Below are positions 1-37,035 of a stretch of DNA of 55,984 nucleotides, piece after piece. The stretch's first letter is position 1; each line of letters begins with the position of its first letter. The notes beneath the pieces were generated by a model that had not been told where the DNA came from, ran no database searches, and was given only the letters and a program-made list of their open reading frames with translations. The DNA is from a virus. Location: positions 1-55,984 of IMG/VR virus record IMGVR_UViG_3300033142_000702; one strand, given 5' to 3'. The translations under genes were made by a program, and so were the position numbers.

Positions 1-638
1 CCTTCCAGATTCTGTTTAACAAAGTCCATATCTTCGTTATTTTTTATCCAAGATTCAATAGTAAATATAATACCTTCGTCTCGATTAACGGCCAGATTAA
101 GTACTCTAGCTTTGTCTTTGAATATTTCATGCAGCTCTAGGTATCTATCTAATTGTAATAGACTGATAAGGAACTTCTTGCGGTTCGTATCAGTAGCAGT
201 TAGGAAATCTAGGCTGTCTGTAGAGTGTTGATATATAAGCTGACAGAATATCTTAAAGTCAGAAACTCCAATAATCTCAGCTAATGTTTTATAAGTATTC
301 AAAGATGTGTGGCTAGATATATCCACGCCGTTTCGATATAACCTAAATTTCAAACTAGATTTACGATCTAACTCTACCAGGTACTCATCACCATCTTTAT
401 TAAAAGTTAAGCTAATGAAGTATCCCTTTTCACCTGTTTTATTATTGCCTATATCTTGCTTTTTAATGTTTTTAATATTTTTGCCATAAAGTACTTCTTG
501 CAGCATAAGTGATATAGAAGTCTTACCCGCACCATTTGTACCAACTAATTGGGTTAAGCATTCTTTATCAAAGTGTATTATATTATCTTTTCCATAAGAA
601 AAACAATTGTCCCAACACATAGTTTTAAATGTTAGCAT
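1..638 (-). CDS. SbcC/Rad50-like recombination ATPase (T4 gp46, T5 D13 type), N-terminal part
   Basis: ATPase subunit of the SbcCD/Mre11-Rad50-type nuclease that processes DNA ends during phage recombination. The start ATG at 638 lies inside the sbcD-like gene (14-nt overlap). The first 40 residues contain a clear Walker A (GTNGAGKTS, about residues 33-41), and a Q-loop-like QHST follows near residue 115. The gene runs off the left edge, so only about 212 residues are visible; coiled coil and Walker B lie outside. Its partner directly upstream is the metallophosphoesterase subunit, which supports the call. Confidence 0.9.
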   Translation of the reverse strand, partial: MLTFKTMCWDNCFSYGKDNIIHFDKECLTQLVGTNGAGKTSISLMLQEVLYGKNIKNIKKQDIGNNKTGEKGYFISLTFNKDGDEYLVELDRKSSLKFRLYRNGVDISSHTSLNTYKTLAEIIGVSDFKIFCQLIYQHSTDSLDFLTATDTNRKKFLISLLQLDRYLELHEIFKDKARVLNLAVNRDEGIIFTIESWIKNNEDMDFVKQNLE

Positions 639-1563
639 AATAAGCCTCCAGCACCTCTTCTATCTCAGGTTTAGATAATTTAGTTATCTCTCCTAGATAC
701 TTTTCTAATTCTTCTTCTATTGTCATATCTGCCAGATCTAATGAAGCCTTCTGTTCATTATGAATAATTTTCTTATCTAGCAGATCAGAGTCTTTATCTA
801 TTTTAGCTAAATCTAAAACATTACCAGTTAGTTCATATATAGTATGGTGAAAATCTGTCTTCACCATATCTTTAGGATCATCAATAGTTTTTCTAATTAG
901 TTGTGGTACATCTATCTGTAGCCACTCCCATTCTTCGGGTTTATCTGTATCAAATACAATAACGCCCAACTTTACTTCATTTCTATGAAATGTAACGGTA
1001 CGGGGTGAACCTGGATAAACTATATTTCTTTGGGAATTTCCGTGTGCGTGGAGATCTCCGGCAAATACTATATCCCACTTATCGAATAAATCAAGGTCTA
1101 CCTCTGGTTTAACATGTGGGGGAATTTCTCCCCGTACATGCGTTAACAATATTTTGTGATCCCCCCTTGCAGATTTTAATTTATGTAAATCTGTGTAGGG
1201 TAATATATCAAAATAGTCACGATAGTTTCCTAAACCATTACATAGATTAGTCTCGTCTGGCAACATAGGAGCTAGATACTTAAGAAAAGTATCTCCCTTC
1301 TTTGTAGCTTCGTGGTTTCCATCATAGAGTACTCTACGTCTGTTTGGATATCGCCATAAGTAACCTATATAGATAGATAGTTCTTCCATTGTAGGTACTT
1401 TATCAAATATATCTCCGCCGTGTACTTCTATATCACATTTATTATCATAAAACACACGATCTAATTCCTCAAACATTATATTATATTGTTTCAAGGCCCA
1501 CTCTCTGGGAATGTTCTTTTGACCTATTCTTATGTGTAAGTCTGCTGTGAATAGTACTTTCAT
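625..1563 (-). CDS. SbcD/Mre11-like nuclease subunit (T4 gp47, T5 D12 type)
   Basis: Metallophosphoesterase nuclease of the SbcCD complex, 312 aa. The metal-binding motifs are present in order: TADLHI (D8, H10), GGDIFD (D51), DGNHE (N83, H84), LLTH and GDLHAHG. It overlaps the downstream SbcC-like ATPase by 14 nt, indicating coupled translation of the two subunits. Length is in the range of phage Mre11 homologues. Position after the helicase and polymerase matches D12-D13 of T5. Confidence 0.9.
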   Translation of the reverse strand: MKVLFTADLHIRIGQKNIPREWALKQYNIMFEELDRVFYDNKCDIEVHGGDIFDKVPTMEELSIYIGYLWRYPNRRRVLYDGNHEATKKGDTFLKYLAPMLPDETNLCNGLGNYRDYFDILPYTDLHKLKSARGDHKILLTHVRGEIPPHVKPEVDLDLFDKWDIVFAGDLHAHGNSQRNIVYPGSPRTVTFHRNEVKLGVIVFDTDKPEEWEWLQIDVPQLIRKTIDDPKDMVKTDFHHTIYELTGNVLDLAKIDKDSDLLDKKIIHNEQKASLDLADMTIEEELEKYLGEITKLSKPEIEEVLEAYYANI

Positions 1564-1683
1564 TTAAATTCCATAAAAATAATCATATACTAACATTGCA
1601 AATATAAATACACCCAGATAAATGAATGGCCATAAATATACTGTTTTACCCATAATTGTCCAGTGTTTATACATTAGTTTCAT
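1564..1683 (-). CDS. 39-aa single-span membrane peptide
   Basis: ATG at 1683 is preceded by a GGAGA ribosome-binding site. The 39-residue product has a basic N-terminus (KLMYKHW) followed by one hydrophobic segment (about residues 17-33) and a short aromatic tail. The stop codon directly abuts the sbcD start. Function unknown; it may simply help couple translation of sbcD downstream of the hairpin at 1704-1723. Confidence 0.6.
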   Translation of the reverse strand: MKLMYKHWTIMGKTVYLWPFIYLGVFIFAMLVYDYFYGI

Positions 1684-1703
1684 ATAACTTCTCCAATTAA
1701 AAT

Positions 1704-1723
1704 GGGGCCCAATTAAGGGCCCC
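1704..1723 (-). terminator. GC-rich hairpin after the ssDNA-binding protein gene
   Basis: A perfect 7-bp GGGGCCC/GGGCCCC stem with a 6-nt AT loop sits just after the stop of the 221-aa gene. On the minus strand it is followed by ATTTTAATT. This could be an intrinsic terminator or an attenuator that lowers expression of the nuclease genes relative to the binding protein. Confidence 0.55.
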
Positions 1724-1731
1724 AACTACTA

Positions 1732-2397
1732 TTATTGAGGTATGTCGTCGTCCATTTCCTCAAGTTCAGTTACAGCTTCTTCGTCTGCTTCAGGCTCTTC
1801 AGGTAGAACATAAGTTCGTAGGAACTTCTCTTGTTCATCCGCTGTAGGCAGTTTAGTAATATCTTCAATACTACCAAACGACTCCAGAGCTTCTTCAATA
1901 GCTTTCTTGTCTTCATCAGTCAGAGCTGAGTTTTTCAATTCAAATATTTCTAAGCTATACTCTACATTGAATGTCTTAGGTCCAGTTTTCTTCTTTGTGA
2001 ATACCACGTCCCAACCATCAACTTCATGTGTGGGATCCCCAAGTTTTTTCTTAGCTGCATCAAGAATTGATTCAAACAATCTTTTCTTGTGGTCACAAAG
2101 TTTCACTACACCATCTTCTCTGTCAATAATTAGAGATTGGTATGCCCAAGAACATTTCATATCTGGGAAAAATTCTCTAACTGGATCTCGTTGTTTATTC
2201 TCAAACTTTTCTGTTTCACGATTAAAAGATAGACAGTCCGCAGGTACGGGTGAATTATCTCTTGTTCTTAACCAGTACTTATAACCTGGTACTACATTTC
2301 CGATAATGCGGATTCTATTCTCACCAAATACTGGTTTAAATCTAGTGGGTCCTGATTTGGAAGCTTTGCCCTGTAAATCTGTAAATTTAACAGTCAT
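1732..2397 (-). CDS. probable single-stranded DNA-binding protein
   Basis: 221 aa. The N-terminal part has the pattern seen in phage ssDNA-binding proteins (RIRIIGNVVPGYKYW, an aromatic-rich region, then SWAYQSLIIDRED), and the last ~25 residues are strongly acidic (EADEEAV...EEMDDD), typical of gp32/SSB tails that recruit replication proteins. It sits among the polymerase, helicase and SbcCD genes. The 4-nt ATGA overlap with the upstream gene suggests coupled translation. The fold is inferred from composition and context; no zinc site like that of gp32 is evident. Confidence 0.7.
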   Translation of the reverse strand: MTVKFTDLQGKASKSGPTRFKPVFGENRIRIIGNVVPGYKYWLRTRDNSPVPADCLSFNRETEKFENKQRDPVREFFPDMKCSWAYQSLIIDREDGVVKLCDHKKRLFESILDAAKKKLGDPTHEVDGWDVVFTKKKTGPKTFNVEYSLEIFELKNSALTDEDKKAIEEALESFGSIEDITKLPTADEQEKFLRTYVLPEEPEADEEAVTELEEMDDDIPQ

Positions 2398-2804
2398 TCT
2401 GTTTTCTCCTGTTCATATTTAAAATAAATATTATTCTTTTCTATATTTAATAAAGGGTTTAATGCAACCCATTCTACCATATATTCTTCAACCATTGCTA
2501 GGGGTAAGTGTGTTATTCCCCTGATGTGGTAATCGAATATATTTCTTTTACTTGCTAATTCTAAGTACATATATAATTCATTGGGCGCTGTAGCACCGTT
2601 TAAAACATCATCTATATTTAAAATAAAGCAAGGTCCTTTAACGTAAGGTTGGCTTGCTACCAACTTAACATTCTTAGGGATTTTTCTGTGTAAGTAAGGT
2701 GGAATATCTATCCCTTGTCTAAGAAAAAAATATTCTAATACACTAGGTGCGTTCCACTTTAACTTATCGTTAATTTTTTTCCACGAAAATTTTATCATCA
2801 TCAT
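2394..2804 (-). CDS. 136-aa protein of unknown function, possibly leaderless
   Basis: I do not recognise this 136-aa protein. It is mixed charge with no membrane segment. It starts MMM: three in-frame ATGs begin 5, 8 and 11 nt after a perfect TATAAT box, so the transcript may begin at or within the start codons with no Shine-Dalgarno site. The gene is coupled by ATGA to the ssDNA-binding protein gene, so a replication or repair role is plausible. Confidence 0.65.
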   Translation of the reverse strand: MMMIKFSWKKINDKLKWNAPSVLEYFFLRQGIDIPPYLHRKIPKNVKLVASQPYVKGPCFILNIDDVLNGATAPNELYMYLELASKRNIFDYHIRGITHLPLAMVEEYMVEWVALNPLLNIEKNNIYFKYEQEKTE

Positions 2805-2809
2805 TTCAT

Positions 2810-2838
2810 ATTATAACAACAATTTAGCAGCATGTCAA
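2810..2838 (-). promoter_or_regulatory. sigma70-type promoter for the SSB-SbcCD unit
   Basis: TTGACA (2838-2833), 17-bp spacer, TATAAT (2815-2810), all consensus. The first ATG of the next gene is only 5 nt beyond the -10 box, so initiation would be essentially leaderless. Confidence 0.8.
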
Positions 2839-2847
2839 GAACTAATT

Positions 2848-4140
2848 TTACGTCAGGTCGATGTGTGTAACTTTATAACCGTTCCTAATATAAAATGCAG
2901 CTCTGTTACGCGATTGCTTTTTGGCTGTTGCTCCTTTTAATACTATATCTACTATTATAGGTGTAAGTTTACCGGGATGTTCTCTTAAAACTCTACCTAT
3001 CAACTGTTCTAATAATGGATCATTATTAATAGGAGTAGCTAATACTAAACAACTTAAATAATTCAAAGATATTCCCTCTTTATATATTGAAATAGAACCA
3101 TATAATATGTCCCTTTCTCTTCTTTCTAATTCTGCATGTAATTCATCACGTTCCGGGGTAGGACCAATAATTACTATAGCTCTATCCCCAGATCTATTAT
3201 TGCACCTATCTAAAAATTCGGTTCTATCAGATACTACTAATACCATATGTTCCAAATCCGCATATCGTTCAGCTATACTAGATATTAAATCTATATACTC
3301 TGGACGATCACATAGTTCATTAATTCTTAGCGCCCAGGGTATCATATTGTTGGAACTGAACATAATACCAGATTGTATCATCACAACCTCAGGAGTCATT
3401 TGATTCTCCTTGGGTGGCGTATATATTGTTTTACTAAAGTAGTCCGGTATCACTACGTGCATGAAATCCTTTCTCTTAAGCGTAGCTGATAATCCTATTT
3501 TATATCTAGCTTTCATACCTGTCACGCACGCAGCAAATATGCTGGCAGGGGCGTGATGTACTTCATCTAGTATAACCGTACCAAACTCATTTTTTAATGT
3601 ATTGATGTGCTTTCTTAAAGTTTGGACGTTAGCTACTACTATAGGTGTATTCTTGTAATCTAGTAGTCCGCTGCCTATAATTCCCGCTTTTATACCCAGG
3701 GTCTTTTTTATTTCTTTAATCCATTGATCCCGTAGATTAACAGTATGTGTTATAATTAAAGTCTTTTGACCTAATTTATGTGCTATAGCTATTCCAGTAA
3801 AAGTCTTACCCCAAGATGTATTAGCGTTAATTAAACAATTATCAACTACGGCATCGTGTATAATTTGCTGGCTTTTTCTAAGTTTAAATTTAAACTCAGG
3901 AAAATTTGCTGAATTTTTTACTCTGACGTCTACTACTTCGTAATCTTTTGGAATTAAGTCCTGTCTACCTATAGGTAGGATTATAAATTTATGTTCTAAT
4001 AAACTATATGTACGAATAGTAGTAGGTGGATCCCCCGGTATTTTACTGGGTATTTTATAAGTTAGTTCTTCTTTAATTTTTAAGTATAATTCTTCATTGA
4101 AGTTTAAGTATATTCGATCACTTAATACGGCTTTCTTCAT
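2848..4140 (-). CDS. SF2 helicase, UvsW / T5 D10-like branch-migration helicase
   Basis: 430-aa superfamily 2 helicase. Walker A variant NTSWGKT (about residues 107-113), motif II DEVHH, motif III SAT (GLSATLKRKD) and C-terminal motif VI QLIGRVLR are all present. UvsW and D10 unwind branched DNA during recombination-dependent replication. It overlaps the 169-aa gene upstream by 4 nt and lies downstream of the polymerase, as D10 does in T5. Confidence 0.9.
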   Translation of the reverse strand: MKKAVLSDRIYLNFNEELYLKIKEELTYKIPSKIPGDPPTTIRTYSLLEHKFIILPIGRQDLIPKDYEVVDVRVKNSANFPEFKFKLRKSQQIIHDAVVDNCLINANTSWGKTFTGIAIAHKLGQKTLIITHTVNLRDQWIKEIKKTLGIKAGIIGSGLLDYKNTPIVVANVQTLRKHINTLKNEFGTVILDEVHHAPASIFAACVTGMKARYKIGLSATLKRKDFMHVVIPDYFSKTIYTPPKENQMTPEVVMIQSGIMFSSNNMIPWALRINELCDRPEYIDLISSIAERYADLEHMVLVVSDRTEFLDRCNNRSGDRAIVIIGPTPERDELHAELERRERDILYGSISIYKEGISLNYLSCLVLATPINNDPLLEQLIGRVLREHPGKLTPIIVDIVLKGATAKKQSRNRAAFYIRNGYKVTHIDLT

Positions 4141-4646
4141 ATTTTTCTGCGATAAGGTTCATGATATTTATTTGTTAAGTCGTATAAGAATGGACCCCAC
4201 CTTGTTCCCATAACTGAAGCATACGTAGTAGTGGGCAACATTGTTTGCCCAACCAAGTATGGTTGTTCGAAACCTTCTAAGTATATAACCGTCCAGTTTC
4301 CATGTTCCACCTTTCTATTTATCTTTATGGACTTAATTTGAAATAACTTAGTGCTTTTACTATATTTTAATATATTGCCATTAAAGTCAACGAAAGTAGT
4401 ACCTGATTTATACTTCACTAATTGTCTCAAGTACATTACTCTTTCTTTTAATTTATATATTTTCTTTCCCGGATAATGCAAAGCTAAGTTACTTCTGCGT
4501 TCTTCAAAATCTCCCTTTAAATTAATATCATCGAATATATATTCACCTTTAATAGTGGTAATTTTAACTAATCCCAAAAGGTTGGTGTCTATGTTTAAAT
4601 AAGATCTTAACTTATAAAGTGGAAATTTTATTTTGCCAAGATCCAC
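4137..4646 (-). CDS. 169-aa conserved-position protein between polymerase and helicase
   Basis: Unrecognised basic protein. Translation starts with GTG, which overlaps the polymerase stop codon by one base (TAGTG), so it is coupled to the polymerase; it overlaps the helicase start by 4 nt. No motif was recognised. Context suggests an accessory role in replication or recombination. Confidence 0.7.
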   Translation of the reverse strand: MDLGKIKFPLYKLRSYLNIDTNLLGLVKITTIKGEYIFDDINLKGDFEERRSNLALHYPGKKIYKLKERVMYLRQLVKYKSGTTFVDFNGNILKYSKSTKLFQIKSIKINRKVEHGNWTVIYLEGFEQPYLVGQTMLPTTTYASVMGTRWGPFLYDLTNKYHEPYRRKI

Positions 4647-6856
4647 TATCCTGCCTCAGCATAACTTGGTCCAAATCCAAAGTCTACACCAATTGGTGCT
4701 CCTGGAATACTAACTCCACGATCTTTCTGTGTAATACGCTTTAATATTTTTCTTACGTTTTCTACATCGTCTTTGTGACATTGCCCAATAATGGAGTCAT
4801 GTACTAGACCAAATATTTCGGCCCTTACAAAACCTTTCTTAAACTCATCGTGAGCATCCATAGCGGCCATTAAATTAATATCACTAGCTACAGATTGCAC
4901 TGTAAAGTTCATTGCCGATCTTAAAGCGTGTCCCTGTTCGTAATCGTCAACACTGAATACATTGGGTACTCTACGTTTACGTCCGAAGTGTGAATAAATA
5001 TATCCGTTAGAATTAATCTCATCCCTTGTTCTTTCTAACCATTTGTCTAACTGTGCGAACTGTCCAAAATATCTACGAATAATAGTCTTGGCTTCACTGA
5101 AACTAATCTTAGCTTCGGAAGCTACCTTAGCGGCACCAGCACCGTATAGAATACCAAATGATATAGCTTTTGATGCTTGTCTCAAGTCTGGGAATTTTTC
5201 TTTAATATCCTTCACAGCGCACGCTATATTGAATGTCATCTTTGCTATAGAACTATGGAAGTCTCCAGTCTTGCTTTTAAATACTTTACCCAGATTCTGA
5301 TCCTTAGAAAGTGCTCCAGCATAATACATTTCTGCTGTTTGTAAATCTTGACTGAATATTACCCAGTCTTTCTTAGCTCGAATACATCTCTTAACCGTTT
5401 TATCGTCTCGCGGCAACTGTTGCATATTTAACTTTCCCGAACTAGAAAGTCTGCCACTAGTTACTGTATGTAAGTGGAATCCCGCACGTAAACGTCCGTC
5501 CAAATCTATTCCGTTAAGTACTTTGATTATATATGTAGAACGTAGTTTAACCTTACTGCGTATATCCGATATTATGCTTGGTATCCCATGAAGCTCCGCC
5601 AAACGTTTTAATTCATCAACATCTGTGCTGTATGCTCCACCGGCTGTCTTACGTCCAGTTGGCAGGTTTAATCTATCATAGAATAGAACCGCTAGTTGGG
5701 CAGGAGATCCAGGATTAAACTTTTCGCCCCGTTCTTCCTCGAACTCATGAATCTCCCTAAATTTATACAATTCTTGTTTAAGCTCAAAAATTTCCTTTTC
5801 AAAAACTTTATTGGCCTTCTCAAGATAATCTTTGTCGAAGGGCACACCTGTCTCTTCCATTTCCATTAAGAACTGGGTACCTCTAAGCATTACATTTTCA
5901 TATAACCACTTAAAATGTTGTTCTATAATAGGGGCGAATTTATTGTACAATCTCATAGTGGCATCCGCATCCCCACAAGCATAGGGCCACATAGTATCAA
6001 AAGGTATTAAGTCATATGTAAAATCACCCAATTTAATACCGTTAGTTTTGCAATATTCCCTCTTGAATACATCTAGCTCGTGATCATAATCACCCATCTT
6101 AGTGTACTTCATAGCTAGGAATTTAAGATCATGAGCTTCGTTTTCATTCAGTAGATAGTGCATAAGCATAGTATCGTGCCAGTTTGGAAATTCAAAATTG
6201 AAATGGTACATTAACCATTTCATATCGAATTTAGCGTTATGGAATACGACAGTTTTGTTGATAAACAATTTCTGCATCATATATTCCACTTCTTCATCTA
6301 TACAGTCTGATTCAATATATACCCCAGACATAGCTTCTATAGACATAGCAATGCCTAACGCATAACCTTCTCTTGGGAAGAAGGAAGAACACTCTGTATC
6401 CACAACTAAAGCTTTTTTCGTATGGGCACGTAATGCTTGGGTAAGCCACTCTTTGGCACGACTGGCGCTGGTAATTCCCTCGTAATTACCAAGGACTTCT
6501 TTATAGGAACCGTCAATATGCTTATGAAGTTTAGCTAGAGCACCATTTAGGGTATCTTTAATGCCAGGATTGAATTTAACCGCTACTGGGTTAATCATGG
6601 GAATATATTTATCTTTAACTATATGCCCGGCAAACTTAGTAACGTTTCCACACTGAGCAATAAATTTGCAAGGTTCCTTGCCTATAAGTACTACTAGATC
6701 ATAGTCCTCAAAGTCTTCTTCAAGGGTTATGTCCCTTTTTAAAATTTTTGTTTTATTGGAATTTACTAGCTGAAATCTATCATACTCAAAATTGAAGTAT
6801 TCCTTGTATGGATCAGCATAACCCATTTTAGCTTTTTCAACTACTGCTATTTTCAT
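4646..6856 (-). CDS. family-A DNA polymerase with 3'-5' exonuclease domain
   Basis: Replicative polymerase of 736 aa. DEDD-type proofreading motifs: ExoI DTE (D153, E155), ExoII HNAKFD (N207, D211), ExoIII Y292..D296. Polymerase motifs: TxxGR-like (residues 465-472), motif A D504 with E509, motif B R559/K563/F567/Y571 (F at the position of E. coli F762), motif C H686-D687-S688. The usual HDE is HDS here. No 5' nuclease domain. It overlaps a 58-aa zinc protein upstream by 4 nt. Confidence 0.95.
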   Translation of the reverse strand: MKIAVVEKAKMGYADPYKEYFNFEYDRFQLVNSNKTKILKRDITLEEDFEDYDLVVLIGKEPCKFIAQCGNVTKFAGHIVKDKYIPMINPVAVKFNPGIKDTLNGALAKLHKHIDGSYKEVLGNYEGITSASRAKEWLTQALRAHTKKALVVDTECSSFFPREGYALGIAMSIEAMSGVYIESDCIDEEVEYMMQKLFINKTVVFHNAKFDMKWLMYHFNFEFPNWHDTMLMHYLLNENEAHDLKFLAMKYTKMGDYDHELDVFKREYCKTNGIKLGDFTYDLIPFDTMWPYACGDADATMRLYNKFAPIIEQHFKWLYENVMLRGTQFLMEMEETGVPFDKDYLEKANKVFEKEIFELKQELYKFREIHEFEEERGEKFNPGSPAQLAVLFYDRLNLPTGRKTAGGAYSTDVDELKRLAELHGIPSIISDIRSKVKLRSTYIIKVLNGIDLDGRLRAGFHLHTVTSGRLSSSGKLNMQQLPRDDKTVKRCIRAKKDWVIFSQDLQTAEMYYAGALSKDQNLGKVFKSKTGDFHSSIAKMTFNIACAVKDIKEKFPDLRQASKAISFGILYGAGAAKVASEAKISFSEAKTIIRRYFGQFAQLDKWLERTRDEINSNGYIYSHFGRKRRVPNVFSVDDYEQGHALRSAMNFTVQSVASDINLMAAMDAHDEFKKGFVRAEIFGLVHDSIIGQCHKDDVENVRKILKRITQKDRGVSIPGAPIGVDFGFGPSYAEAG

Positions 6857-7029
6857 TCGTATTTCACCTTGTCACAAATAGAACATACATATTTAAATCT
6901 AAGGGAATGGACATTATCAATGAAATCATGTTCACATATCTTTTGTGCTGTATATATTAGATGCCTTAATTCATCTATCTCATTTAAATTATCCTGTAAT
7001 TTTTCTTTAAGTTGTTTCACTGTTTTCAT
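6853..7029 (-). CDS. 58-aa possible zinc-binding protein
   Basis: Start ATG at 7029; it overlaps the 3' end of the primase gene by 23 nt and the polymerase start by 4 nt. The first ~30 residues look helical (KQLKEKLQDNLNEIDELR). C32, H34 and C49/C52 (CSIC) could form one zinc site. Function unknown; it is embedded in the replication operon between primase and polymerase. Confidence 0.65.
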   Translation of the reverse strand: MKTVKQLKEKLQDNLNEIDELRHLIYTAQKICEHDFIDNVHSLRFKYVCSICDKVKYE

Positions 7030-7873
7030 TACCGTATAATCCTATCATTAATGTTGCTATATCGTGCTCTGTTAAATCGCCCGGGTCCATGCCGTCAGGC
7101 AACTCAATTCTTTCCGCATTAAATCCATTTGAATTTAATACGTTTTCTAATTTCTCAGCGGCTTCTCGGCCCGCTTTATCCCCATCAAACATTATATAAA
7201 ATTTATTTACCCCTAAAATTTTATAATGTGACAATCTCTTTTTATATGTTTTCAATAGTGTATGCGTACCAAAAGCACTTAATACATTATGACAACCTTT
7301 ATCCATCATATTTAAAGCATCAAATATACCTTCCACTAGAATTAACGAACTCTTCCAAATTTCTGGGTGTGCCGGAAATAGTGGCGGAGTCACGCCTTTT
7401 GGAAAGAATAAGTATTTATCTTCTATATCTGAGTGTAATGACCTTCCAATAAATACTTTAATATTACCTCTAATATCTCGTAAGGGAAATATTACTCTGT
7501 CTTTAAATTCATCTTCTTGATTAGAGGTAAAAGCGTCCGCCTCTAAGTATGTGTGCTTAGATAATTCTCTATAATCTCTATTAAATGGTACCGCATCTGC
7601 TGGCATCGTTAAATTTTTATCACTAAGCATGTCTCTTACTTTACTCTGTAGTTTAGATATTTCTATATCTAAATAATTTGGTTCTGCCCCAAACTTTTCA
7701 AATATGTTACCTTTATGTCCACAACTAAAACAATGAAATACTCCAGTTATCTTATCTATACGCATACTAGGATTACTGTCTTCATGTTCGGGGTTTATAC
7801 AAACTATTTGATAGTCCTTTCCCGCCTCACGATATTTAATACCTCTTTCTACTAATATGTCTATTACATTCAT
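7007..7873 (-). CDS. DNA primase (DnaG/T7 gp4 primase type)
   Basis: 288 aa. The N-terminal zinc-binding domain has C25, H30, C48 and C51 (HCFSCG). The TOPRIM catalytic core shows LVEGIFDALNM and FDGDKAGREAA. It is shorter than bacterial DnaG and has no helicase-interaction domain; the replicative helicase is a separate gene directly upstream with a 4-nt overlap. It lays RNA primers for the polymerase two genes downstream. Confidence 0.92.
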   Translation of the reverse strand: MNVIDILVERGIKYREAGKDYQIVCINPEHEDSNPSMRIDKITGVFHCFSCGHKGNIFEKFGAEPNYLDIEISKLQSKVRDMLSDKNLTMPADAVPFNRDYRELSKHTYLEADAFTSNQEDEFKDRVIFPLRDIRGNIKVFIGRSLHSDIEDKYLFFPKGVTPPLFPAHPEIWKSSLILVEGIFDALNMMDKGCHNVLSAFGTHTLLKTYKKRLSHYKILGVNKFYIMFDGDKAGREAAEKLENVLNSNGFNAERIELPDGMDPGDLTEHDIATLMIGLYGNENSETT

Positions 7874-9219
7874 AATTTCAAATCATCCTTCGATTCATCT
7901 TCTTCTGTATTTTTAGCTTTCTTAGTCTGATTCTTTACTAATTCTATATTTTTATCTGCGTATATTTTCAATGTGGGCCAATGTATTTCTGAAGCAAAAT
8001 CTATCGCCTGATCTCCACGAGACTTTTTACACTCAAATTCAATTGCACCATAGTCGCCATCATGTACTGCGGATAAGTTGAACGCCCAGTTTGGAGAATC
8101 CAATATACCTTTAGCGAATCGGACTTTACCCTCTTCGCTTGTTTGGAACGGCGTCACCATTACTACATCGTGCTTTCTTGCTAGCGCCTTCAATTTTTTA
8201 GATAAGTCGATCTGTACTTGCCAATTATATGGGTCCTTAGAAGTAATTTGGTTAATATAATCAACTACTACTACTTTTAAGTTATCTTCTAACATCGTTT
8301 TATATGTGTGGATCGTTGCATCTATATTAGCTATAGTCAACGTAGAGTTATCTATTGTAATTATCCTGTTATCACTGGTTAATGGTCTATCAATTAACTT
8401 TCTTTCAAAAGTATTAAAATCACCATCGTTTTCAAACTGTTCTATTAAATCCATAGAACCGTCCGCAGTCATTTTAGCTCTTGTTTTAGCAATAGCTAAT
8501 TTTTCCATATCTGTAAGATTACCACTTCTGATATTCTTTTCAGGAACCTCAGTTAATATAGATATATATCTATTATATAATTCTCTACCACTCATTTCTA
8601 TACTGAAATATAAGGCCGAACTGCCTTGCTGATATTGATTACATACTATATTAGCACATATAACCGATTTACCAGAACCTCTGTGCCCACCAATCATGAT
8701 GAACTCCCCTGGAGCCATTCCTAGGCTCATCCTATCAAAGTCATTATTCAGGCCTAGAGGTACTCTAGATAGAATAGTATCTCTGTCAATAGTAAGGAAA
8801 TCATTCATTTCTACTATCTGTTCTGATACTTCAGTTTTTTCTTCAATATCTATTGAGATAGTAGATAAATCCTCTACTATCTCTCCTACATCCTTAAATA
8901 CCAGGTTATCTAAATATCCACCTAATTGCTTTAATACTTCTCTTTGGGCATATTCATTTATAAGAGCTTGGAGAATAATTTCAATATCCAAGTCTTCTGG
9001 TACGTTTAATTCACTTAATGCTGTTATATAATTAGCACTCTTTTCATCGCGTGTAACTACTTCTAATTCATCAAATGAGGGTAATTTGTCAAACTTCTGA
9101 TAAAACTTGTTTATCAGCATATATATTTCAGTGTACGGTGCTTCGAAGAACTCTTTTCGTAATCTTGACCAAGCTTCTAGGTCCTGATTAGCTAGTACTT
9201 TGTGTAAAATTAAGTTCAT
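7870..9219 (-). CDS. DnaB-type replicative DNA helicase
   Basis: 449-aa RecA-fold hexameric helicase. Walker A GGHRGSGKS, Walker B VVVVDYINQ, and a sensor-like VTPFQTSEEGK. The N-terminal ~130 residues resemble the DnaB collar domain. The C-terminal tail is Lys/Glu rich. First gene of the helicase-primase-polymerase run; a strong terminator separates it from the D5-like gene upstream. No consensus promoter is visible in the 100-nt gap, so a weak or middle promoter is possible. Confidence 0.92.
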   Translation of the reverse strand: MNLILHKVLANQDLEAWSRLRKEFFEAPYTEIYMLINKFYQKFDKLPSFDELEVVTRDEKSANYITALSELNVPEDLDIEIILQALINEYAQREVLKQLGGYLDNLVFKDVGEIVEDLSTISIDIEEKTEVSEQIVEMNDFLTIDRDTILSRVPLGLNNDFDRMSLGMAPGEFIMIGGHRGSGKSVICANIVCNQYQQGSSALYFSIEMSGRELYNRYISILTEVPEKNIRSGNLTDMEKLAIAKTRAKMTADGSMDLIEQFENDGDFNTFERKLIDRPLTSDNRIITIDNSTLTIANIDATIHTYKTMLEDNLKVVVVDYINQITSKDPYNWQVQIDLSKKLKALARKHDVVMVTPFQTSEEGKVRFAKGILDSPNWAFNLSAVHDGDYGAIEFECKKSRGDQAIDFASEIHWPTLKIYADKNIELVKNQTKKAKNTEEDESKDDLKL

Positions 9220-9275
9220 TAAGTTCTCAATTGTGCCCTTTAATTCCCCAATTAAACGGCTGAATCATGAATGCG

Positions 9276-9304
9276 AAAAAAAGAGGGATCATAGATCCCT
9301 CTTT
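9276..9304 (-). terminator. intrinsic terminator after the D5-like gene
   Basis: Perfect 8-bp GAGGGATC/GATCCCTC stem (11 bp with flanking AAA/TTT), 3-nt loop, then a run of seven T on the minus strand. It ends the ligase/D5-like transcript and separates it from the helicase operon. Confidence 0.9.
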
Positions 9305-9328
9305 GATTCAGTTAATCCCCTTAAGAGA

Positions 9329-10042
9329 TTAAGCCGCTTTCTTTACTTTAGCTTTATAATCGGAAGCCTCGTAACCGCGACGTGTGATAATTGTTTTAAC
9401 ACCACGTACTGTCTTACCGGATTTTTCTGCAATTTCTGCAACAGACAAACCAATCAAAGCACCTGCATTAAACAGTTCTTCGATAATGTCAATTTTAGTT
9501 GCTGCATGGGATTCACGCTGTGCGGGAATATCTAGTTGCTGTGTGCGGTTAAGACTTAGAGCCTTACCACGTACAGACGCTAAACTCTTACCTAGAGCAT
9601 CAGCAATATCTTCTAGATATTTACCAGAGTTTGCCATTGCTACGAATGTAGCTTCTTCTTCATCAGAATAAGTCTTTACAGACTCTTTCTTAGGTGTAGC
9701 TTTAACAGAACCTGTCAGTTCTAAGCTAAGTACCTTGCCCTGAATTTGCTTAGCAGAGAATTCTCCACCACCAAACGCTTCAGCGATTTGAGCATAAGTA
9801 AACTCACCAGGATTATCTGCTAGAAATGTTACTAGTGCTTCTTCTTGAACTTCAGAGAATTTGCGTGCACGAGGGCCAGCCTTCTCTACTTCTTCACCCA
9901 TCTTACGTAGCTTTGCGCTAACTGAACGGGTAGATACTTCTAATACTTCTGCCGCTGCCGCTGCCGCTTCTTGACTTACTGGGCGATCTCCGCCTACAGC
10001 TTCAAGCAATTGTGCTACTCTGTCTTCTGTCCATAAACTCAT
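9329..10042 (-). CDS. tandem helix-turn-helix DNA-binding protein in the T5 D5 position
   Basis: 237 aa with four repeated HTH-like units, including AAAAAAEVLEVSTRSVSAKL, YAQIAEAFGG..., YLEDIADALGKSLASVRGKAL and SVAEIAEKSGKTVRGVKTII; the C-terminal tail is basic (KAKVKKAA). It lies between ligB and the DnaB-type helicase, the place of the abundant DNA-binding regulator D5 in T5. Likely an early double-stranded DNA-binding or transcription-control protein. The D5 identity rests on position and repeat architecture. Confidence 0.65.
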   Translation of the reverse strand: MSLWTEDRVAQLLEAVGGDRPVSQEAAAAAAEVLEVSTRSVSAKLRKMGEEVEKAGPRARKFSEVQEEALVTFLADNPGEFTYAQIAEAFGGGEFSAKQIQGKVLSLELTGSVKATPKKESVKTYSDEEEATFVAMANSGKYLEDIADALGKSLASVRGKALSLNRTQQLDIPAQRESHAATKIDIIEELFNAGALIGLSVAEIAEKSGKTVRGVKTIITRRGYEASDYKAKVKKAA

Positions 10043-10043
10043 G

Positions 10044-10799
10044 TTATGTTTCCTTAATTAAACTTGCTATTGTTACTATTGGAATCTCTAAGGATTCCGC
10101 CTTTTTACTTTTACTTGAGTTACTACCGTCTTCGCAAACTAGATAATCCGTCTTTCCAGATACTCCAGTAGTAATTGTATAACCATAATCTTCTAGAAAT
10201 TCTTTGGCTTTTGCCCTATTTGAAAAATCATTGAGTTTACCTGTTATACATACATTACCTTGGTGTTCCATGTTTTTAACTTCAACAGTTAAAAACGTAA
10301 AATACTCTTCTAATTGTTCTACGTCATCTATATTATCACTTAAATAATCAAATAGATTATCCAAGGCCTTAGGTCCTACACTTATATAACCTAAGAATTT
10401 TTCTTTACATAGATCCTCAATACTATTAATTTTAGCACCGATTTTCTTACTTGCAGTATCCCCAATTAAAGGAATACTTAACGCACTTAAGAACGTAGCA
10501 AAGGTAGTAGTTTTACTATTTTCAATTTCATTGAAAATCTTTTGTCCAATTTTCTCACCTAGAGCTTCCACATAAGCCTGTAAATGAGTTTCATATATCT
10601 CCAAGGGATGGACAAAACCAAGTTTGGAAATACTTGCAGGGCCTAAGCCCTTAATACGCATTTTCTTTACGAAGGCTTCCACCTTCTTTGTAGATTGAGC
10701 AGGACAATCTTTACTCCTGCAAAATAATTGAGAGTTAACTGTTTCCAAGTCTGATGAGCAGCTTGGGCATTGTGTTGGAATCTCTATTTCTATTGTCAT
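10044..10799 (-). CDS. ligB: NAD-dependent DNA ligase, C-terminal subunit (zinc finger, HhH, BRCT)
   Basis: 251 aa from the ATG at 10799. Domains in order: C4 zinc finger (CPSC...CRSKDCP, about residues 7-28), helix-hairpin-helix repeats (KGLGPASISKLG and others), and a C-terminal BRCT domain (NVCITGKL...TDYLVCE). It lacks the nucleotidyltransferase core, which is a separate gene upstream. The start is 7 nt after the -10 box of its own promoter, implying a leaderless transcript; an upstream in-frame ATG would overlap the promoter. Confidence 0.88.
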   Translation of the reverse strand: MTIEIEIPTQCPSCSSDLETVNSQLFCRSKDCPAQSTKKVEAFVKKMRIKGLGPASISKLGFVHPLEIYETHLQAYVEALGEKIGQKIFNEIENSKTTTFATFLSALSIPLIGDTASKKIGAKINSIEDLCKEKFLGYISVGPKALDNLFDYLSDNIDDVEQLEEYFTFLTVEVKNMEHQGNVCITGKLNDFSNRAKAKEFLEDYGYTITTGVSGKTDYLVCEDGSNSSKSKKAESLEIPIVTIASLIKET

Positions 10800-10806
10800 T
10801 ATATAT

Positions 10807-10835
10807 ATTATATCAAAGGTTGAGCAACCTGTCAA
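10807..10835 (-). promoter_or_regulatory. sigma70-type promoter upstream of ligB
   Basis: TTGACA (10835-10830), 17 bp, TATAAT (10812-10807), with extended -10 TGA directly before TATAAT. It lies between the two ligase genes, so ligB and the D5-like gene can be made independently of ligA. Confidence 0.8.
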
Positions 10836-10868
10836 GAACTATTTTTTGGTTGCATGAGTGTTTATTAT

Positions 10869-11813
10869 CTATTCCGCTTTCTTAATTATCCGTGGGATAA
10901 TCCCGCCAGCTCTCTCTACCATTACGGCGTCACCTATATGTAAATCCAAGGCTTTAATAAAGCCAGGATTATTTAAGGTGGCCCTAGAAACTTTAGCCCC
11001 ATCAATATCTACAGTATCTAAGATAGCTACCGGGGTTACCTTACCAGATTTACCCGTTTCCCAGTCTACTCTTAGAAGAATAGTCTTTACACCTTCTGAA
11101 CGCTCTTTCATAGCATAAGCACCTCGCGGGTGTTTACTAGTATAACCTGCTGCGTAGAAATCTTTTAATGAGTAGTATCTAAAAACTACCCCATCTTGTG
11201 GATAATCATCTGTACTATGTGTCATTACTGTTTTAAAGCCTATATCTCTTAAATATCCTATAGTAGCTTGATAGGTTTCAAACATTGATTCCTGCATATC
11301 ATATGCAAAAAAGGTAACTGCCTTTTCTTCAAAGGCTTCCGGACCTTTAAGATTAAGCGCTCCAGCAGCATAATTTCTAGAATTGAGAATATCTTTATGT
11401 GCAACTATTTCTCCTGTAACTTGAAAAATATCTTTACGTTTTACTGTAGTGGGTATACCCATTTTATATGCTTTACTCATAGTGAATAAGTGATCTACTC
11501 TTTCACCATATATACCATCGCCCCTAGTTACTATACTGTGTAATGTACCATTTAAATAGGTTATAGCTACGGCCGCACCGTCTAACTTAGGAGTTTCTTC
11601 GTACAACCAAGGTTCAGACTCTGTATATTCACCCACATATTCTTTACGTAAAGAATACATACGATATAAATGTTTACTACGTCCCTTATTTGTTCCCACA
11701 CTTAAATCTTCAGAACAAACGTCTTCCAACGCATCATACTGAGAATCAGATATGATAGGCTCTCCGGCATAATAAGCAGCCTTACAAGTTTCTAAATATT
11801 CTTTTAAACTCAT
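10869..11813 (-). CDS. ligA: NAD-dependent DNA ligase, N-terminal catalytic subunit
   Basis: 314 aa. Contains the Ia domain (residues 1-40), the adenylylated lysine motif KLDG (near residue 77), RGDG, TGEIV, DGVVFR and the AMKER lysine motif, followed by an OB-fold (GKSGKVTPVA, ATLNNP). Zinc finger, HhH and BRCT are missing and are encoded by ligB downstream. The two-gene ligase is a T5 hallmark as far as I recall. Confidence 0.9.
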   Translation of the reverse strand: MSLKEYLETCKAAYYAGEPIISDSQYDALEDVCSEDLSVGTNKGRSKHLYRMYSLRKEYVGEYTESEPWLYEETPKLDGAAVAITYLNGTLHSIVTRGDGIYGERVDHLFTMSKAYKMGIPTTVKRKDIFQVTGEIVAHKDILNSRNYAAGALNLKGPEAFEEKAVTFFAYDMQESMFETYQATIGYLRDIGFKTVMTHSTDDYPQDGVVFRYYSLKDFYAAGYTSKHPRGAYAMKERSEGVKTILLRVDWETGKSGKVTPVAILDTVDIDGAKVSRATLNNPGFIKALDLHIGDAVMVERAGGIIPRIIKKAE

Positions 11814-31770: not shown

Positions 31771-31774
31771 TTTA

Positions 31775-31832
31775 TCTCCTTTAGTGAGTGGGTCTTCACT
31801 CATTTATACACTCGTGGATCTTCACGTGTGCT
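31775..31832 (-). promoter_or_regulatory. two similar small hairpins before the NAMPT gene
   Basis: CGTG-AAGATC-CACG and TGAGTG-AAGACC-CACTCA follow each other in the 60-nt gap between prs and the NAMPT ribosome site. The shared core GTGAAGAYCCAC suggests a duplicated protein- or ligand-binding hairpin, or an attenuator. Confidence 0.35.
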
Positions 31833-32666
31833 TCAAAGGCTTACTACTTTCAGACCTTGTACCTCGTATGTTTGAGGAAAACTGTCTGTGGTAAAGATTC
31901 TCTTAATACCCGCTTTAAATAATGGAGCGTATCCCTTAGAGAATATACCATGTGTTACGTATAAATTAATACTTCTTGGGCTAAGACGTTGTAGTCTTTC
32001 AGCCAACTTAATGAAGGTCATACCTCCATCACAAATATCGTCTACTATAAGTACGTCCTTACCTTTTAGACTATAGCCATAGTTCACATCAGTAGCTACA
32101 ATCTTGCCAGTCTTAGTATCTCGTATCTTATTGGCACGAATAATATCTAAACCATCATAGCGTTGAGCTACTTTTAATACTTTCTTTTCTGCTCCAGCAT
32201 CAGGACTTACTAAGGTAAGTTCTTTTGAAGAAAGTTTGTCAAATAAGTTCCAACCTTCTTTATACTCTGAAAATCTATCTAGTATTACTGTTGTATCCCA
32301 TATTAAACAGTTATTGATTAGTGCTGGAGCTACATCACTATGAGGATCAACTATGATTACTTGATCAAAATTCATACTGTTAATAAGATCAGCCATAACT
32401 TTAATCCCCAGAGCTTCGCCAGGGTTACATATTCGATCCTGTCTAGCGTAAGGTACATAAGGTATTAACAAGGTTATAGGTTTTTGCCTGTAAAATGCTA
32501 ATTGATCTATAGCATTTTTAACTAACAGCAATTCCATGATATCATCTGAAGTGCGTAGATTAGTTTTTAATACTATTCTGTCCGCATAAATACGCTCAAT
32601 CTTCGGATGGACTTCCCCTCCCGAAAACTTGAACGTTTCAACTTTGTCGCCGTTAATTTTAATCAT
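31833..32666 (-). CDS. prs: ribose-phosphate pyrophosphokinase (PRPP synthetase)
   Basis: 277 aa. PYVPYARQDR and VDPHSD of the ATP/ribose-5-phosphate site and DVLIVDDICDGGMTF of the PRPP loop are intact. Makes PRPP, the co-substrate of NAMPT downstream. Own promoter (32690-32718) and strong GGAGGAATAAG ribosome site. Confidence 0.92.
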   Translation of the reverse strand: MIKINGDKVETFKFSGGEVHPKIERIYADRIVLKTNLRTSDDIMELLLVKNAIDQLAFYRQKPITLLIPYVPYARQDRICNPGEALGIKVMADLINSMNFDQVIIVDPHSDVAPALINNCLIWDTTVILDRFSEYKEGWNLFDKLSSKELTLVSPDAGAEKKVLKVAQRYDGLDIIRANKIRDTKTGKIVATDVNYGYSLKGKDVLIVDDICDGGMTFIKLAERLQRLSPRSINLYVTHGIFSKGYAPLFKAGIKRIFTTDSFPQTYEVQGLKVVSL

Positions 32667-34580: not shown

Positions 34581-34958
34581 TTAATTATTTATATAAAAGA
34601 CATGCTCGCCTATTTGGGCGACCATCGTCATGTGCTTTGCCCAGTAGGGCTTAACGTATAACGCATGATAGTGCATAACCCCCTTAAGGTCATTATGGCC
34701 GGATCCCGCTAATACTCCTTCGGCCACCATCTGCGCTCTGTTCCATGCGTCATGTTCTTTGGGTACATCACTTTTTCCATCCCAGTACCAGCTAAATTGT
34801 TTGCTCTGATGTACTACACTACATACATCATTAGGATATTCTGGGCTAGCAACTCTTTGCATAGTTACTTGAGCTACTGCCACTTGGCCAGCGAGAGATT
34901 GATCTCTAGCTTCCCAATACACATTCATCGCTAAACACATTATTGCTAGATCAATCAT
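34581..34958 (-). CDS. SleB-type cell wall hydrolase (Hydrolase_2)
   Basis: 125 aa from ATG 34958 with AAGGATGATTG upstream. CLAMNVYWEARDQSLAGQVAVAQVT is the signature of SleB/CwlJ lytic transglycosylase-like hydrolases with catalytic Glu. No signal peptide is obvious beyond a hydrophobic N-terminus. Could be the endolysin, though its place in the tRNA region is unlinked to a visible holin. Confidence 0.8.
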   Translation of the reverse strand: MIDLAIMCLAMNVYWEARDQSLAGQVAVAQVTMQRVASPEYPNDVCSVVHQSKQFSWYWDGKSDVPKEHDAWNRAQMVAEGVLAGSGHNDLKGVMHYHALYVKPYWAKHMTMVAQIGEHVFYINN

Positions 34959-34972
34959 CAATCATCCTTAAT

Positions 34973-35132: not shown

Positions 35133-35621
35133 TCATTTCTTTGTACTGTAATACCCCATTTCTTCTAGGATATATGCTTTTTCTCTCAAGAACAACACGG
35201 CAAAACCTGGATCATCTTTAACGATCGACTTGGTATTATCTGCCATGTCACAAATCTTAATCAACTGCACATCTTTAGAGCATTTTCCAAGACGTACTGC
35301 TTCTAAATTCTTTCTAGTCTTACGGTTCAGCTTAGGGTATTGTTCTTTAGTGAACTGATCTGTAAGATCGTATACCAACTCAGCAACTCTTAAACCAAAG
35401 TGTTTGAAAATTTCTTCCCCCGTTACCGGAGTATCTTCAACCACATCGTGCAAGTAAGCTGCTGCTACCATTTCCGAATCACTAGTCATACTAGCTACCA
35501 GTTTTGCTACAGCAATCGGATGCACAATGTAAGGTTCGTTATCATACTTTCTGACTTGATCACTGTGCGCTGCGGTAGCAAAATCTTTAGCTTTCTGTAC
35601 GATTGAGCTCGTATTGCTCAT
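35133..35621 (-). CDS. SpoT/MESH1-like HD-domain (p)ppGpp hydrolase
   Basis: 162 aa from ATG 35621 with GGAGA 8 nt upstream. A-x-x-A-H...VRKYDNEPYIVHP, AAAYLHDVVEDTPV (HD-x-x-ED) and IKICDMADNT match the RelA/SpoT hydrolase domain; there is no synthetase domain. Would degrade the alarmone (p)ppGpp, keeping host transcription and translation active during infection. Confidence 0.85.
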   Translation of the reverse strand: MSNTSSIVQKAKDFATAAHSDQVRKYDNEPYIVHPIAVAKLVASMTSDSEMVAAAYLHDVVEDTPVTGEEIFKHFGLRVAELVYDLTDQFTKEQYPKLNRKTRKNLEAVRLGKCSKDVQLIKICDMADNTKSIVKDDPGFAVLFLREKAYILEEMGYYSTKK

Positions 35622-35988
35622 TTTTGTATCTCCAATATTCATTAACTGCTGCTGTATTTAGTTCATGCTCATTAGTATATCCGCCCTCTAATACTTGTTC
35701 AATATCAGCGCACAGGCCTATCCCATATGTACTTATATGTGGAAACAAAGTTTCCAGTGCATCGGCCGTATCCCCGTCGATCAAATGTACTTCAGTATTG
35801 CGTACAAAATCACTAATCTTTGTACAGTGGTACTCATTAGTACCAAAACCCCATTCTACTTCTACACCCTTAACACTCTCTAGTGCATCTACTAACCTGC
35901 CGTGTTCCAATTCAGTATAAATCTTCATACCAAAGGTACTAAATTCATCCGCCCAATCCATATTTAACTTACGTAAAAAATACTGCAT
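35587..35988 (-). CDS. 133-aa protein of unknown function
   Basis: Acidic alpha/beta protein, unrecognised. The end overlaps the HD-domain gene by 35 nt. First gene after the promoter at 36019 on that transcript; AAGGAAAG upstream of ATG. Confidence 0.6.
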   Translation of the reverse strand: MQYFLRKLNMDWADEFSTFGMKIYTELEHGRLVDALESVKGVEVEWGFGTNEYHCTKISDFVRNTEVHLIDGDTADALETLFPHISTYGIGLCADIEQVLEGGYTNEHELNTAAVNEYWRYKNEQYELNRTES

Positions 35989-36147: not shown

Positions 36148-36234
36148 TGGCGGAGAACGAGAGACTCGAACTCTCACACCGTTGCCGATGTACGGTTTAG
36201 CAAACCGCTGCGTTAACCATTGCGCCAGTCCTCC
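36148..36234 (-). tRNA. tRNA-Ser (GCT)
   Basis: Class II; loop TTGCTAA, long variable arm, discriminator G typical of Ser, CCA encoded. Confidence 0.9.
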
Positions 36235-36240
36235 ATTTAT

Positions 36241-36670
36241 TAAGCTGTAAACTAGTCCGGCCCTTCTGACAAAGGGGTTTCGCACGTGTCAGCGTACCGA
36301 GCTATTGCCCGCCAGATTACAGTTTAATAAATAGTCCGTTCTGTTGACAGGTGGACTAAGCCCCGCATAAGCTAAGCTGTTTAGGCCGCCATTGCAAGTT
36401 CGGCTTCTATCCCAAAGTCGTTACCAACTATAGGGAATGCGATTATGTTATCATTTGCGATTACATTAATTAATACTTACGGTATCAATCGAGTTGTCCA
36501 TTCCGCTTTCTTCACCCTGTCGAATCCAGTCACCCCCATCAAAATAACACTAACGAGAACTACTCTTAAGAAAGGCATCGTGACCCTTATCAATTAATGT
36601 TATTATGGTGGAGGTGGGCGGTATCGAACCGCCGTCCAAAGCGCCTACTTACTTTATTTCATACAACTAT
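36241..36670 (-). ncRNA. ssrA: circularly permuted (two-piece) tmRNA
   Basis: In transcription order: an acceptor piece ending at 36606 (T arm GGCGG-TTCGATA-CCGCC, acceptor CACCTCC, A73, CCA), a ~68-nt linker, then the coding piece starting at 36537 with GGGGGTG ACTGGATTCGAC, the conserved tmRNA 5' end. GGGGGTG pairs with CACCTCC with G3:U70, the alanine identity pair. The coding piece holds TAATC before a GCA resume codon and a 25-codon tag (ANDNII...ELAMAA-stop). After the tag, an H-type pseudoknot is clear (CTGACA/TGTCAG with CCCTT/AAGGG). AAAGCG/CGCTTT can start helix P2. Gene order is reversed relative to one-piece tmRNA, as in alphaproteobacteria. Outer ends are estimated. Confidence 0.92.
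36381..36458 (-). other. tmRNA tag reading frame
   Basis: GCA AAT GAT AAC start (ANDN) preceded by TAATC, comparable to UAGUC before GCA in E. coli. 25 codons, ending ELAMAA then TAA. Tags ending in a small hydrophobic residue plus AA are ClpXP degradation signals. This tag is longer than most. Confidence 0.88.
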
Positions 36671-36671
36671 A

Positions 36672-36803
36672 TTATTTATCTTGAAGAAACTCAAAATATT
36701 TTTTCGCAGCTTCAACTACTTCTTCAGGACTTTCATTTCTAGTCTTGTGTCTTACTGCGTTATTTAAAGCTTCGTGTCTATCTTCTTTTTCTTGTTCAGT
36801 CAT
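36672..36803 (-). CDS. 43-aa charged helical protein
   Basis: GGAGAATAAA precedes ATG at 36803. Helical and charged (MTEQEKEDRHEAL; EEVVEAAKKYFEFL). It ends directly before the tmRNA acceptor piece. Unrecognised. Confidence 0.6.
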   Translation of the reverse strand: MTEQEKEDRHEALNNAVRHKTRNESPEEVVEAAKKYFEFLQDK

Positions 36804-36822: not shown

Positions 36823-37035
36823 TCAGCCCACTTCTATATGACTTGCGCAATGTTTGCTTATAGCAACTCTAGCGCCCTGTACTACTAATTCTATATTACC
36901 TTTTGTACTAGTAATATGTTTTACTCTTGCACCTTCGATAAGACCAAGTGTCATAATTCGTAGAACACAATTGCAGTTAGTTTCTACTCTTTTAATTACT
37001 GCTGTCTTCCCTACTTCTAATTCATTTAATCTCAT
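36823..37035 (-). CDS. feoA: FeoA-domain protein
   Basis: 70 aa. The whole protein is one FeoA SH3-like domain: NELEVGKTAVIKRV, a metal-site-like NCNCVL, RIMTLGLIEGARVKHI, and VQGARVAISKHCASHIEV. In bacteria FeoA supports the FeoB iron transporter; no FeoB is here. It could alter host iron uptake or act as a small regulator (DtxR-type repressors carry the same domain). Confidence 0.8.
   Translation of the reverse strand: MRLNELEVGKTAVIKRVETNCNCVLRIMTLGLIEGARVKHITSTKGNIELVVQGARVAISKHCASHIEVG

Follow-up and report, generated by a model that had tools for sequence, protein, structure and literature searches.

We identified a complete circularly permuted tmRNA gene, clearly real, on the minus strand of a contig from a distant relative of phage T5. 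tmRNA is the RNA that frees stuck ribosomes. The DNA analyzed, hereafter the window, covers 55,984 bases and is recorded as a linear virus sequence, so that the phage genome may be incomplete. Related genes occur in many environmental T5-like contigs. It is this distribution across an uncultured T5-like branch that appears to be new: phage-borne permuted tmRNA, previously a matter of scattered cases, thereby proves to recur across a whole uncultured branch beside the T5 family.

Architecture of the permuted tmRNA gene

ARAGORN reports a permuted gene (tmRNA*) at 36290-36698 on the minus strand. The Rfam model RF04321 (tmRNA_permuted) scores 119.4 bits at 36381-36668 (cut-off 47, E 8.8e-23), and its match spans model positions 1-213 of 213, so that both halves score, in permuted order. 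The original prediction of a two-piece permuted tmRNA, which had proposed a check with ARAGORN and the Rfam permuted models and had taken a single scoring half as refutation, is thus upheld by both programs. The parts of the gene are as follows.

36606..36698, minus strand: acceptor piece, transcribed first (5' P2 strand, T arm, CACCTCC, A73 and encoded CCA)
36538..36605, minus strand: 68-nt spacer between the pieces, a hairpin prolonging the acceptor stem (z -3.0)
36332..36537, minus strand: coding piece (GGGGGTG acceptor strand, D-like region ACTGGATTCGAC, P2 strand ACAACT, tag frame, pseudoknot-like stem)
36381..36458, minus strand: tag reading frame, ANDNIIAFPIVGNDFGIEAELAMAA, stop TAA
36332..36358, minus strand: stem of a putative downstream pseudoknot, 6-bp TAGTCC/GGACTA around ACCTGTCAACAGAAC

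The acceptor piece carries the T arm GGCGG-TTCGATA-CCGCC followed by CACCTCC-A-CCA, whose last base is 36606, and the coding piece opens at 36537 with GGGGGTG ACTGGATTCGAC. The order of the two pieces and both of these positions had been predicted exactly; the strand had not been given. The two pieces form an acceptor stem with seven of seven pairs, G3:U70 included, in agreement with the predicted perfect pairing and alanine identity. The resume codon GCA (36458-36456) directly follows TAATC and opens a tag of 25 codons with the C-terminus ...ELAMAA and the stop codon TAA at 36383-36381; direct reading and the ARAGORN tag both reproduce this part of the prediction. The 3' end of the spacer forms a 5' leader, TGAT, present in most relatives.

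The outer limits of the gene are less sharp. The 5' end of the acceptor piece is approximate (36668 according to RF04321, 36698 according to ARAGORN), as is the 3' end of the coding piece, the gene end given by ARAGORN (36290) falling within a hairpin at 36235..36332. The alphaproteobacterial model aligns the ACCTGTCAACAGAAC motif to its own 3' region, and the downstream stem is recognized in most relatives with differing sequences, its second pseudoknot helix having been inspected by eye only. The alpha- and betaproteobacterial permuted models give close scores: RF01849 (alpha_tmRNA) reaches 79.6 bits, above its cut-off of 50, and thereby just exceeds RF01850 (beta_tmRNA), which reaches 79.0 and 75.7 bits, below its cut-off of 84.

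The tmRNA lies among tRNA genes and close to several protein-coding genes:

36235..36332, minus strand: long AT-rich stem with a branched interior, between the tmRNA and tRNA-Ser(GCT) (z -4.1)
36148..36234, minus strand: tRNA-Ser(GCT), the next downstream gene, among the tRNA genes that surround the tmRNA (ARAGORN)
34581-34961, minus strand: cell-wall hydrolase
35133-35642, minus strand: HD-domain phosphohydrolase
36823-37035, minus strand: FeoA

Homologues of the cell-wall hydrolase also lie near permuted tmRNAs in seven viral contigs (L004, L005, L007-L011).

A distant relative of phage T5

Two features place the contig among the T5-like phages:

625..11813, minus strand: T5-like replication block, in T5 order
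9329..10042, minus strand: D5-like transcription factor, a T5-like phage marker and the basis of the phage tree

From 11813 down to 625, the block comprises ligA, ligB, the D5 regulator, replicative helicase, primase, family-A polymerase, D10-like helicase, ssDNA-binding protein and an SbcD-like subunit, the same order as in the T5-like phages Ceto, Slocum and 70E35.6. The contig is therefore T5-like by its D5 gene, its split NAD ligase and its replication gene order; the series ligA-ligB-D5-helicase-primase-polymerase follows the Demerecviridae order, and the T5-like context given with the original prediction is confirmed. The relationship is distant: the DNA polymerase is 40-46% identical to those of Demerecviridae (43% in the best tblastn matches to isolates) and D5 is at most 47% identical. 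In the D5 tree, a branch with SH-aLRT 98 separates the 12 isolates from the window and every environmental contig, so that the window is not inside the T5-like isolate clade. When the window tmRNA or its surroundings served as DNA queries against the phage collection, neither near nor distant searches returned a close relative; the window polymerase, queried as a single protein against viral contigs, gave no confirmed match. Elsewhere in the window (30268-32666, minus strand), genes for a nicotinamide phosphoribosyltransferase and a ribose-phosphate pyrophosphokinase adjoin, likely an NAD salvage pair.

Distribution among T5-like phages

We gathered 80 T5-like IMG/VR contigs, 68 environmental and 12 from isolate genomes, with a four-sequence D5 alignment. 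RF04321, run over whole records, scored above cut-off in 22 of 50 and 3 of 30. Two extra carriers pass as re-searched loci: L119 with 72.3 bits, across a long spacer, and L120 with 55.6 bits, at a contig edge. Permuted tmRNA above the RF04321 cut-off is thus present in 27 of the 68 environmental contigs, and in 19 of the 28 that measure at least 30 kb. None of the 12 isolates has a permuted tmRNA above this cut-off, nor do they have a standard tmRNA above cut-off. Carriers are scattered across the environmental side of the D5 tree. No tmRNA was seen in 9 of the 28 contigs of at least 30 kb, which may be incomplete; the gene may thus not be essential to the group, absence being weak evidence because many contigs are fragments. 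We infer from this sequence survey that long residence of the tmRNA in the uncultured T5-like branch is the simplest reading of its distribution.

Selection on the folded RNA

We compared the acceptor stems of 26 tmRNAs from T5-like phages. All 182 of 182 acceptor cells are paired when counted by position (MAFFT misaligned the acceptor strand) with strand placement requiring G3 and U70. Columns shuffled 1000 times gave a mean of 146 and a maximum of 159, a guide rather than a probability since the sequences are related. Placement without the G3/U70 rule finds the same pair in all rows but two misplaced ones (L118, L120). Compensatory double changes occur at 4:69, 5:68 and 6:67, the seven-base variants including CAGGTCC/GGGCCTG, CTGGTCC/GGGCCAG, CAGCTCC/GGGGCTG and CTACTCC/GGGGTAG, while G3:U70 is invariant in all 26 copies. 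Pairing also holds in all 125 of the T arm cells and in 138 of the 148 outer P2 cells. Nearly all tags of the relatives end in AA, mostly ALAA. The maintained pairing, the compensatory changes and the invariant G3:U70 argue for selection on these sequences as folded, alanine-chargeable RNAs. One relative (L118:1501-1764) has an apparently altered T arm (CTAATC-AACCAA-GATTAG), with its acceptor stem and G3:U70 intact.

Spacers and flanking hairpins

Spacer stems in most relatives measure 9-13 bp; their sequences vary, complementarity stays, and they usually end 4-5 nt before G1. Several relatives depart from this plan. In one T5-like phage (L119:1636-2187, minus strand), a 577-nt spacer houses an HNH endonuclease ORF (phrog_2255, E 8e-28) whose stop codon TAG lies within the acceptor strand GGGGTAG, the partner strand CTACTCC being changed to match. 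Spacers of 124 and 153 nt (L105:671-998 and L113:1501-1857) show a Shine-Dalgarno-like sequence immediately 3' of CCA and contain short ORFs (MWQRLVNWLF... and MNLLCGYHAK..., respectively). At the other extreme, the pieces are separated by just 4-5 nt in L101, L117 and Stenotrophomonas phage BUCTxx99 (L210), the first two being also devoid of an encoded CCA.

The window and relatives such as L097, L109, L112 and L113 have long, near-perfect AT-rich stems with interiors of 30-75 nt before, inside and after the tmRNA. In the relatives, an identical interior is found within stems of differing sequence (modules 0, 2, 5 and 7). Rfam matches at the flanking hairpins are weak and under cut-offs; one of them, L109:1814-1897, resembles the dfrA-dnaX RNA at 32 bits, below the cut-off of 48.6. 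Over the window as a whole, long hairpins number 52 vs 32-48 in shuffles, close to the shuffle level, and we do not propose a dispersed hairpin element for it.

Origin and host range

Trees were built on a 186-column tmRNA alignment. The alphaproteobacterial sequences form a supported clade, both in a first tree (99/96), which also places one long row from a T5-like phage inside it, and in a second tree from which this row was removed (99/97). In both trees the window lies outside this clade, among phage and Burkholderiales copies, the latter being the nearest cellular sequences. In the first tree, 29 phage rows, the window among them, form a starred set (96/99). The tree row closest to the window copy comes from a viral contig and is 64-65% identical to it. 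With isolate phages added, the deep order is unsettled and a single phage clade is neither demonstrated nor rejected (p-AU 0.72), the alignment being short and the bootstrap not settled.

Permuted copies are also present in isolates: Stenotrophomonas phages Marzo and BUCTxx99, Pseudomonas phage SM1, Xanthomonas phages XacN1 and Rb1, and Alcaligenes phage QDWS595. Related phage tmRNA copies occur in different phage families. Five isolate records of Pseudomonas, Xanthomonas, Alcaligenes and Stenotrophomonas phages (KU245542.1, AP018399.1, PQ569993.1, OK149171.2, OR529408.1) contain a permuted tmRNA that is unannotated. In the gammaproteobacterial genera Pseudomonas, Xanthomonas and Stenotrophomonas, chromosomal tmRNA is one-piece. 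Permuted copies in isolates of several host genera indicate that the permuted form is no guide to the host. The suggestion that the permuted form hints at host range consequently fails, the window moreover grouping with phage and betaproteobacterial sequences and not with Alphaproteobacteria, and the form is unusable for guessing a phage's host.

These observations also bear on a recent capture of the gene from the phage's host, in which case the form would name that host, an alphaproteobacterium or a member of another group with permuted tmRNA. Permuted tmRNA is indeed common in Alphaproteobacteria, with RF04321 above cut-off in 86 of 96 sampled genomes vs 5 of 120 in Burkholderiales (one of these five, L150, is called a standard tmRNA by ARAGORN), and the alphaproteobacterial model just outscores the betaproteobacterial one for the window gene. 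We nevertheless regard recent capture as very improbable: the supported alphaproteobacterial clade excludes the window, the closest tree row is viral and only 64-65% identical, phages of Pseudomonas, Xanthomonas and Stenotrophomonas have permuted copies, and presence throughout the phage branch argues for long residence. Furthermore, a pattern fitting the T arm, acceptor stem and D-like region of the window has no match in the genome-contig collection; a looser pattern finds 13 loci there. Tentatively, and with more doubt than conviction, we may instead picture a permuted tmRNA lineage owned largely by phages, with a long history in the uncultured sister group of the T5 family, swapped among unrelated phages and adapted to infection through its own tags, swappable spacer hairpins and an endonuclease gene in a spacer, rather than a copy of the current host's gene.

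Permuted tmRNAs of Oxalobacteraceae (Herminiimonas, Duganella and Herbaspirillum: L126, L127, L134, L138) have tags without the AA end (ANDSQFLAYGT, ANESQFLAVGT, ANEPQFVAYGT and ANDANYLVQVYG), and a second RF04321 match, weaker than the first, is present in several of the genomes concerned.

Proposed function

The gene most likely represents a working permuted ssrA, providing an additional trans-translation RNA that would supplement the host's during infection. The elements of this reading that can be read from the sequence are the gene order, the pairing of the pieces, the alanine identity pair, the intact tag frame, the minus-strand site among tRNA genes, the presence across the branch and the maintained pairing. 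The steps of processing, charging and tagging are modeled on known two-piece tmRNA biology (PMC11915505; Keiler 2000 via PMC9004378). One precursor would be transcribed from the locus, and host tRNA-processing enzymes would excise the 68-nt spacer hairpin, with a 5' cut before G36537 and the 3' end at CCA (36606). The two pieces would be held together via the acceptor stem and P2. Charged by host AlaRS, the RNA would then rescue stalled ribosomes with host SmpB and EF-Tu, and its 25-residue tag ending in AMAA would direct the tagged product to host proteases. SmpB would have to come from the host, since no gene for it was found in either the window or 14 tmRNA-bearing relatives. The phage would likely benefit from the rescue of ribosomes in infected cells, where mRNA breakage and host shut-off may make non-stop messages frequent; the tmRNA would then be a supplement to translation, like the 28 other predicted tRNA genes of the phage. 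Counting against this function, the tag is long, at 25 codons vs a commonest length of 10 (PMC11915505).

The unusual tag length, and the variation of tags between phages, would also suit a decoy or modulator, that is, a phage RNA occupying SmpB or ribosomes and thereby blocking or retargeting host trans-translation. There is some precedent for such an effect, in that a tmRNA form of phage DS6A devoid of a CDS inhibits the endogenous tmRNA in E. coli, as cited in PMC11915505. However, the window RNA retains the resume codon, an open tag frame, an AA-terminal tag, G3:U70 and a pseudoknot-like stem, all as expected of an active RNA, and we consider a decoy unlikely. A non-functional remnant, for instance an integration-site fragment, is scarcely credible: tmRNA genes are often integration sites and prophages contain fragments of them (PMC9004378), but the gene is complete here and pairing is maintained over the whole set. 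If the gene is a working ssrA, a testable question is why phages relying on host SmpB and ribosomes keep a ribosome-rescue RNA of their own.

Comparison with known systems

Permuted tmRNAs of phages are a known kind, and the view that their occurrence in a phage is a novelty in itself has to be abandoned. PMC9004378 reports 402 phages with tmRNA; of their 133 distinct structures, 53 were called two-piece by ARAGORN, 50 of these 53 being from marine or aquatic phages, and the two-piece tmRNA of Melnitz was described there in detail. PMC11915505 lists 79 phage tmRNA sequences and is the source of RF04321. A search of literature titles and abstracts returned no description of tmRNA in T5-like phages; the supplementary list of PMC9004378, outside this search, may include T5-like members.

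The closest published cases are Methylophilales phage Melnitz and the Pelagibacter myophages (PMC9004378), which likewise bear a permuted ssrA. These are myophages with an alpha-type RNA, whereas the window comes from a T5-like phage and its RNA clusters with those of phages and betaproteobacteria; a glutamine riboswitch is reported in Melnitz, while the window gave no riboswitch match. Isolates Marzo, SM1, XacN1, Rb1 and QDWS595 carry a phage-borne permuted tmRNA scoring 103-123 bits with RF04321, mostly unannotated in their records, but belong to phage families other than that of the window. Demerecviridae (T5, Ceto, Slocum) share the replication order of the window, yet the 12 T5-like isolates searched have no tmRNA above cut-off.

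Among cellular RNAs, betaproteobacterial tmRNA (RF01850) has the same permuted architecture, and its model matches many relatives; its tag is usually ANDxxxALAA, however, whereas that of the window has 25 residues, and the window scores under the RF01850 cut-off. With alphaproteobacterial tmRNA (RF01849), the window has in common ACCUG-CAACAGAA, a conserved region that follows the tag, but differs in its T loop GGTTCGATACC, its acceptor strand GGGGGTG and its position outside the alphaproteobacterial clade.
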